Of a stretch of 64,000 nucleotides of DNA, positions 7,907 through 8,856 are shown one piece after another; position 1 is the first letter of the stretch; every line of letters begins with the position of its first letter. The stretch comes from Cyanobium sp. PCC 7001 (GTDB lineage Bacteria; Cyanobacteriota; Cyanobacteriia; PCC-6307; Cyanobiaceae): NCBI RefSeq assembly GCF_000155635.1, contig NZ_DS990556.1, forward strand, positions 124,001-188,000. The letters are read 5' to 3'. The notes under the pieces were generated by a model. The model did no database searches, was not told where the DNA came from, and was given only the letters and a program-made list of their open reading frames with translations. The position numbers and the translations under genes were made by a program.

Positions 7907-8050
7907 ATGGCTGACAGCGCCTCCCGCTTCGGTTTCGTTGCCTTCGCGGAAACCTGGAATGGCCGTCTGGCCATGATGGGCTTCGTGATCGGCCTGGCCA
8001 CCGAGATCCTCACCGGCCAGGGCATCCTCGCCCAGGTGGGTCTCGGCTGA
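7907..8050 (+). CDS. hli: High-light-inducible protein (one-helix chlorophyll-binding)
   Basis: 47 residues with the Hlip signature ETWNGRLAMMGFVIGLATEI: one membrane helix with the Glu and Asn/Arg chlorophyll-binding residues of the LHC superfamily. Hlips bind chlorophyll and carotenoid and protect photosystem assembly under excess light. The start is fixed by MADSASRFGFVAFAETW, typical for the family. It is followed 27 bases later by a strong terminator, so it is monocistronic, and it is divergent from the hydrolase gene at 7227. Confidence 0.93.
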   Translation: MADSASRFGFVAFAETWNGRLAMMGFVIGLATEILTGQGILAQVGLG

Positions 8051-8077
8051 GGATCGGGCACCATCGCCCTTCCCGTG

Positions 8078-8104
8078 GCCCCCTGGCTCTGTCAGGGGGC
8101 TTTT
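8078..8104 (+). terminator. Rho-independent terminator of hli
   Basis: GCCCCCTG (8078-8085) pairs perfectly with CAGGGGGC (8093-8100) around a 7-base loop, followed directly by TTTT. Confidence 0.92.
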
Positions 8105-8111
8105 GTGATGG

Positions 8112-8137
8112 CAGGTTCGTGATGACAGGTTCGTGAT
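8112..8137. repeat. Short direct repeat CAGGTTCGTGAT
   Basis: Two copies with a 14-base period (8112-8123 and 8126-8137), just after the hli terminator and in no gene. No function is evident; it is probably a slippage duplication. Confidence 0.7.
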
Positions 8138-8189
8138 AGCAGGGCACCAGCCTTGCCATGGTGGCTCCGTCCCGTCGCGCGCCTGTCCC

Positions 8190-8303
8190 ATGCCCCCATC
8201 CCCGCCCGCTTCCCCCGTGGTGGTGAAGCTGCAGATCATCGCGGCCGTGTTTCTTCCCATGGCCCTGCTGGCGGTGTGGCTGCGGTCCCAGGGGTTCTGG
8301 TGA
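8190..8303 (+). CDS. Possible small membrane protein (37 aa)
   Basis: ATG at 8190 opens a 37-codon frame, MPPSPPASPVVVKLQIIAAV, then a hydrophobic stretch ending LAVWLRSQGFW. It has one predicted membrane helix, as in small photosystem or NDH subunits. However, it overlaps the 3' end of the UmuD-like gene on the other strand (8236-8303), so one of the two may be wrong there. No recognised homologue. Confidence 0.3.
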   Translation: MPPSPPASPVVVKLQIIAAVFLPMALLAVWLRSQGFW

Positions 8304-8784
8304 TGGCGCCGTGCTGCCGCCGCCGCGGCAGCAGATGGTGCACCGCATGGATCACCACCCCCCAGATCAGGGCGTCGTCGTCCTGCAGGACCATGGGGGC
8401 AATGGCGGGGTCGCTGGCCACCAGCTGCCAGGGCGGCCGTTGGCCGCGCAGCTGACGCAGCAGAAAGCGACCGTCGTGCACGACCACCACCGTGCAGCCG
8501 GGTCGGGCGTTCACGCTGCGGTCGATCACCAGCAGGTCACCGTGGTGGATGCCGGCAGCCCGCATGGCATCGCCCTCCACCCGCATCAGGAACGTGGAGG
8601 TGGGCCGTGGGATCAGGGCGGCGTTGAGATCGATCGAGGCTTCGACGTAATCGTCAGCCGGGCTGGGGAATCCCGCGGCCACGGTCTCCGTGGCGAGGGG
8701 AAGACCGGTGCCGGCCGCGGCCGTGTCGATGGGGCCGAGCCAGGTGAGCTCGCCTCCGGGGGACTCACGGCGAAGGCGCTGCAT
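8236..8784 (-). CDS. UmuD/LexA-type S24 peptidase-like protein lacking both catalytic residues
   Basis: Full S24 fold: FPSPADDYVEASIDLNAALI near the start, FLMRVEGDAMRAAGIHHGDL, then VNARPGCTVVVVHDGRFLLR and LIWGVVIHAVHHL. In active UmuD the motif is GDSM with nucleophilic Ser and a later Lys general base; here the codons read GAT GCC ATG (Asp-Ala-Met) and the Lys position is Arg (FLLRQL). It is therefore predicted to be unable to self-cleave. Start M at 8784 is chosen because a LexA box covers 8806-8819, inside the longer frame from 8823. The C terminus runs ~30 residues beyond usual UmuD. No umuC is adjacent. Confidence 0.8.
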   Translation of the reverse strand: MQRLRRESPGGELTWLGPIDTAAAGTGLPLATETVAAGFPSPADDYVEASIDLNAALIPRPTSTFLMRVEGDAMRAAGIHHGDLLVIDRSVNARPGCTVVVVHDGRFLLRQLRGQRPPWQLVASDPAIAPMVLQDDDALIWGVVIHAVHHLLPRRRQHGAITRTPGTAATPPAGPWEETRPR

Positions 8785-8805
8785 GCGGCTCGAACCACGA
8801 CGCTG

Positions 8806-8819
8806 CGTACATTTGTACT
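8806..8819 (-). promoter_or_regulatory. LexA/SOS box upstream of the UmuD-like gene
   Basis: On the minus strand the sequence reads AGTAC-AAA-TGTAC-G, an exact match to the cyanobacterial LexA consensus RGTAC-N3-DGTWC-B. It lies 22 bases before the ATG at 8784, a good position for repression, and decides the start. Confidence 0.85.
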
Positions 8820-8856
8820 GCATCGCGCCGGTGCGCTGGCGTTCGGCCGCTGCCCC

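Follow-up and report, generated by a model that had tools for sequence, protein, structure and literature searches.

The window, the whole 64-kb stretch of DNA analysed here, carries a stand-alone umuD-like gene on its minus strand, preceded by a LexA (SOS) box (Table 1). The reading frame is open over 8236–8823, and the ATG at 8784 is the likely start codon, since the only other in-frame start (ATG at 8823) would put the box within the gene; this agrees with the first-pass annotation, which had set a perfect box just before the only compatible start. The box is the one perfect match to RGTACNNNDGTWCB in the window (0.04 expected in shuffles) and belongs to seven distinct places that match in the 2.83-Mb genome, the consensus being that published for Nostoc PCC 7120 and discussed for cyanobacteria (PMC3091678, in excerpt). 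Beside the gene, positions 7907–8303 of the plus strand hold a 47-aa ORF and a hydrophobic ORF of ~37 aa, the latter ending at 8303 and antisense to the 3' end of the umuD-like gene (its last ~22 codons). The 47-aa ORF presumably resembles a high-light-inducible protein.

Table 1. The umuD-like gene, its SOS box and the features of its product, in window positions
Feature	Positions	Strand	Basis
Stand-alone umuD-like gene, 182 aa, likely start ATG at 8784	8236..8784	-	ORF and translation, PF00717, NF007621, AlphaFold core matching UmuD' 1ay9/1umu
LexA (SOS) box AGTACAAATGTACG	8806..8819	-	0 mismatches to RGTACNNNDGTWCB; 21 bp upstream of start codon
Ala73 (GCC) at catalytic Ser60 position	8566..8568	-	alignment to E. 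coli UmuD/UmuD' structures
Arg110 (CGT) at catalytic Lys97 position	8455..8457	-	alignment to E. coli UmuD/UmuD' structures
Scissile dipeptide Ala37/Gly38 in VAA↓GFPSPADDYVE, equivalent to E. coli Cys24↓Gly25	8671..8676	-	alignment to 8gmt/1umu, conservation
C-terminal extension, lineage-specific, predicted disordered	8239..8337	-	end antisense to small plus-strand ORF ending 8303

The encoded protein matches the Pfam S24 domain (PF00717, 1.3e-21) and scores above the cut-off of the NCBIfam UmuD subfamily (NF007621, 122.6 bits against 110). Its AlphaFold model (mean pLDDT 75.6, residue blocks 61–150 at least 86) finds 1ay9 and 1umu as best fold matches, with a TM score of 0.87 by target length, rmsd 2.0 and 38% identity for the UmuD' structure 1ay9; structural matches outside the S24 proteins were disregarded. 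Fold, UmuD profile and an N-terminal arm with an (A/C)-G scissile bond are thus present and the Ser-Lys dyad is absent, bearing out the earlier call of a UmuD-like fold with both catalytic residues replaced. Neither a LexA nor a HumD identity was found: TIGR00498 gives 56.4 against a cut-off of 110.95 and Pfam no DNA-binding domain match, and the HumD profile (HumD being an armless UmuD'-like form) gives 68.8 bits against 120 for a protein that has an arm. The C-terminal extension of ~30 residues, singled out at first pass, exists as an open reading frame, but its residues (approximately 150–182) have pLDDT values of 57–71 and are shorter or different across the wider family; as it is disordered, variable and partly antisense to the small ORF, we give it no weight.

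A search for a second, active umuD and for umuC had been proposed at first pass, alongside the remark that no umuC adjoins the gene. None is found next to the dyad-less (hereafter dead) umuD in the window or at related dead-copy loci. At G000:C1 of the source genome (about 644,900–645,270), a second UmuD lies directly before a 437-aa UmuC (both within 644,899–646,565), with motifs GESM and TVKRL that leave its Ser-Lys dyad intact; no arm resembling AGFPSPADDYVE precedes its domain. The copy sought is therefore there, catalytic and adjoining umuC but armless. The genome's own LexA is encoded elsewhere than the window and has an intact dyad. In sequence, the window protein is the mirror image of the second UmuD, the one with an arm and no dyad, the other with a dyad and no arm.

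Forty-nine related genomes encode a complete armless catalytic copy, which stands next to umuC in 48 by script and in the last (G057) by reading of the translation. Both Ser and Lys are retained in 49/49 despite a mean pairwise identity of 62%, which is hard to explain unless the armless copies still cut something. An arm hidden in another frame or upstream was rejected: a six-frame search covering 700 bp upstream of the Ser codon recovered an arm-like peptide for 0/49 catalytic copies, against 90/90 controls. In the same analysis, the spacing from box to Ser codon was below 59 codons in 35 of the 44 catalytic genes whose box has no more than one mismatch; in E. coli UmuD, 59 residues precede Ser60.

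Among 90 tabulated Cyanobiaceae genomes, chosen as dead-copy holders or as comparison genomes, 49 combine a dead, arm-bearing copy with a catalytic armless one, 34 have just one UmuD, which carries both dyad and arm (G010, whose apparent armless copy is a contig-end fragment, L024, makes a 35th) and six have a dead copy without a complete catalytic one (G044, G064, G070, G072, G316 and G069). In G069, the catalytic copy is cut by a contig end (L254) that leaves its Lys out of sight; 55 dead-copy genomes thus comprise 49 with a complete armless catalytic copy and G069 with a truncated one, besides the five others. A further 25 genomes of other genera have a single full UmuD (24 read fully, G117 in part), and S24-family searches of 60 single-copy genomes (18 + 42) returned no second UmuD apart from the fragment in G010 and, in G035, a truncated copy, many of the 60 also having a weak, short S24-like match of 20–39 bits. 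The G035 copy (L338) has the Lys part without the Ser part and stands alongside a normal single UmuD. Split and single states are mixed in 0/115 genomes, and all 12 additional Cyanobiaceae genomes from a class-wide search have full-form UmuD.

These counts draw on a source list of 334 Cyanobiaceae genomes, 24 of them without a match; residues were read in 115 genomes (G001 being off that list) plus the 12. LexA matches (HMM score under 80 bits) were removed before counting, and G007 (77% complete) and G027, G281, G282, G091 and G113 (no UmuD match at 1e-12) are uncounted. One copy per class was counted per genome (G079 has two dead copies), the contig-end fragments of G010 and G069 were left out of class counts and trees, three third-type copies (described below) were tabulated apart, and named relative loci overlapping G genomes were counted once. 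Non-cyanobacterial relatives, Proteobacteria included, have the dyad (17 loci, L069–L085). At two betaproteobacterial loci (L069 and L075), a LexA-like S24 gene, whose product has an additional N-terminal domain, is followed by umuD and umuC, both S24 dyads being intact. In many relatives (L040–L068), the dead gene lies ~1–2 kb from a contig end, hinting at a repeat nearby, and adjoins one type of gene, which we take to be Rho-N/SAP-like; L064 is a metagenome-assembled contig titled Bifidobacterium breve whose dead umuD is of the Cyanobium type, probably through a binning error.

Ala and Arg occupy the dyad positions in 55/55 dead copies of related genomes, and such fixation marks the pair as neither error nor decay. 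A pseudogene or sequencing error was rejected for the window gene, the same state recurring in 55 genomes at a dN/dS of about 0.2. A decaying, functionless duplicate would fit the loss of the catalytic residues, yet we regard it as extremely improbable, given a median dN/dS of 0.20 (356 non-independent pairs, none above 1), the invariant Ala and Arg and the many LexA boxes. The medians are 0.28 for catalytic copies (170 pairs) and 0.23 for full ones (304), these pairs likewise being non-independent and none exceeding 1. A box with at most one mismatch lies upstream of 43/48 catalytic, 36/55 dead and 24/34 full genes, against 4–5% for scrambled patterns, a catalytic gene and a full gene whose upstream DNA was too short having been left out; 19/55 dead genes have no such box, and boxes allowing two mismatches are common by chance (36–43% in scrambled patterns).

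Loss of the dyad could in principle be offset by another nucleophile and base within the dead protein, a finding that, at first pass, had been named as one that would overturn the reading of a protein unable to cleave itself. We judge such hidden self-cleavage very unlikely: the Ser, Thr and His columns at least 95% conserved in the 55 dead copies match the commonest residue of full UmuD, all Cys and Lys columns stay below 95%, the sole changed polar column has Asp replacing His, and the core of the model folds like an ordinary UmuD'. No lineage-specific conserved candidate emerges from the 55 copies.

These observations suggest that in many freshwater picocyanobacteria a self-cutting UmuD has been replaced by two genes. 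It is likely, in our view, that UmuD has been split into a substrate and a protease subunit, with cleavage in trans activating Pol V. The window protein, with its N-terminal arm, Ala37-Gly38 bond and no dyad, would be the substrate subunit, and the umuC-linked paralogue, with its Ser-Lys dyad and no arm, the protease subunit. On DNA damage, LexA would release both genes; the two products would pair as a heterodimer, the protease subunit would cut its partner's arm in trans on RecA/ssDNA filaments, and the resulting UmuD'-like heterodimer would join UmuC as Pol V. Heterodimer formation, cleavage, RecA dependence, induction and Pol V activation are steps that we infer. In vitro, heterodimers formed by two E. 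coli mutants, the arm-truncated UmuD 18 and UmuD S60A, are cleaved efficiently in trans in a RecA/ssDNA-dependent manner (PMC5342242, in excerpt); because that mixture divides the roles as the natural pair does, the analogy favours trans cleavage here. Retention of a canonical cut site together with an armless catalytic UmuD next to umuC points the same way, and away from a protein that always stays uncleaved. We also hold as fairly probable a broader proposal, in which cut site and active site sit on two obligate, mostly unlinked paralogues, Pol V needs the heterodimer and strict trans cleavage, the cut site decays in lineages without the protease, and a second family took the first step independently.

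The first-pass annotation had proposed a damage-induced UmuD that cannot cleave itself and would either act as a dominant brake on translesion polymerase or have a new binding role. Its premise stands, in that no self-cleavage dyad is present; a simple dominant brake or an unrelated binding role is disfavoured by the cut site and the armless partner, the brake persisting as a rival. In that rival, which we think unlikely, the full-length dead copy would pair with the armless copy without being cleaved and hold Pol V off or send its partner to proteolysis. Rapid delivery of UmuD' to ClpXP by E. coli UmuD/UmuD' heterodimers (PMC4552617, in excerpt) offers a precedent, and the dead/armless pair, with the dyad absent from 55/55 dead copies, has the UmuD/UmuD' composition; a brake nevertheless leaves the invariant Ser-Lys dyad of the armless copy (49/49) unexplained.

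It also sits poorly with the behaviour of the cut motif. A PF00717 search found no catalytic UmuD in G044, G064, G070, G072 and G316, where a dead copy is present. Val or Ile at P3 and Ala at P1, both in the part that cleavage would remove, are kept as [V/I]-x-Ala↓Gly in 50/50 dead copies with a partner (G069 included) and lost in 4/5 partnerless ones, which read GAS↓G (G072), PTS↓G (G064), PAT↓G (G316), QTS↓G (G044) and VAA↓G (G070). Fisher's test of partner absence against motif loss gives p 1.5e-5 with kinship ignored. On the tree there are four partner losses and three motif losses, too few events to reach significance in an independent-pairs sign test (p 0.25); partnerless branches make up 25% of clade length, and three chance motif losses on them have a probability of ~0.016. 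The association of motif loss with loss of the partner is therefore suggestive, short of proof. Thr at P1 in G018, which has an active single-copy UmuD, shows that Ala there is not absolute, and GFPSPADDYVE itself could be kept for a role in UmuD' instead of cleavage.

In the five partnerless genomes, umuC stands alone behind a box-like sequence seen by eye, with no umuD adjoining (L168, L169, L171, L172 and L173 in G064, G072, G044, G070 and G316, respectively). Given these genomes, the dead protein may also work uncleaved, and the partnerless sisters G064 and G072 have dN 0.041 against dS 0.117. A cleavage-independent function, as a Pol V subunit or otherwise, with the dead copy binding UmuC or another partner uncleaved, is nonetheless quite improbable: dead copies without a partner are a minority state (5/55), the cut motif has gone from four of the five, in keeping with loss of the normal role, and two of the genomes are the two long end branches flagged in the tree (G044, 1.29; G316, 0.61). 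Cleavage in trans by the armless copy remains our preferred reading.

The history of the split is uneven. In a quick tree of few columns, dead copies group in a clade that also contains a nested third type (SH-aLRT 99), and catalytic copies have a clade of their own (98). The third type is an S24 paralogue with both arm and dyad gone (L253 in G044, L256 in G073 and L257 in G079), with motifs GNGM, GNGL or GHRL together with LRPL and a one-mismatch LexA box in 3/3; other g17 genomes have 4–5 S24 matches, and this paralogue may be present in them too. Split genomes are patchy in the UmuC tree, with no single clade; three changes between split and single states are needed, which implies loss or joint transfer. 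Where members of the same genus are single-copy (for example, G008), the neighbour genes stand together and the dead gene is absent. The two g29 genomes have dead umuD, catalytic umuD and umuC clustered within about 4 kb, with umuC 1.2 and 2.1 kb from the dead gene.

Outside Cyanobiaceae, 40 UmuD-like loci of 27 genomes were read, of which all 40 have the arm and 35 the dyad. Five genomes of genus g58, in another cyanobacterial family (f22), carry a umuC-linked UmuD with Ser replaced by Pro and Lys by Arg (loci L322, L325, L333, L357 and L358, with L360–L364, in G505, G543, G511, G493 and G520). These dead UmuDs form a separate clade (100/99) and keep [V/I]SA↓GFPSP in 5/5, and each of the five genomes has a single further S24 protein, a stand-alone UmuD with dyad and arm. 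Thus a UmuD that lacks the dyad but keeps its cut site, accompanied by an intact paralogue, has arisen twice, Lys being replaced by Arg on both occasions. The intact g58 paralogue retains its own arm, and loss on both sides is therefore not a general pattern.

Cleavage of UmuD is the gate to error-prone synthesis, and whether it proceeds in cis or in trans has been discussed from E. coli mutants and models. A natural pair confined to trans cleavage, if that is what these genomes encode, would open this question to direct tests and give structural studies clean proteins with one function each; it would equally be a clear example of complementary loss of function turning a self-processing homodimer into a heterodimer. 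Among the matches listed from open-licence papers, no title or abstract opening describes a split UmuD; the umuD duplication of Cyanobium gracile PCC6307 has been reported as a count (PMC5101192, in excerpt).

With E. coli UmuD the window protein shares the S24 fold, the arm with its scissile bond before GFPSPA.DYVE and the LexA box; it differs in having no Ser-Lys dyad, in lying outside a umuC operon and in its armless partner paralogue. That partner is armless like UmuD' and the short HumD-like proteins, whereas the window protein keeps its arm and fails the HumD model. UmuDAb of Acinetobacter is another atypical UmuD homologue that belongs to the SOS response (PMC4807011, in excerpt), but its own N-terminal domain is needed for repression, and the window protein has no such domain match. 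A dead paralogue paired with an active one also recalls trypanosome prozyme (PMC5201418, in excerpt), although prozyme is an activator and the cyanobacterial dead paralogue would be a substrate. The closest parallel is the mixture of UmuD 18 and UmuD S60A, in which the active site likewise comes from one protomer and the arm from the other (PMC5342242, in excerpt); that pair was made by mutation, whereas the cyanobacterial one, with its predicted cleavage, is natural and conserved.
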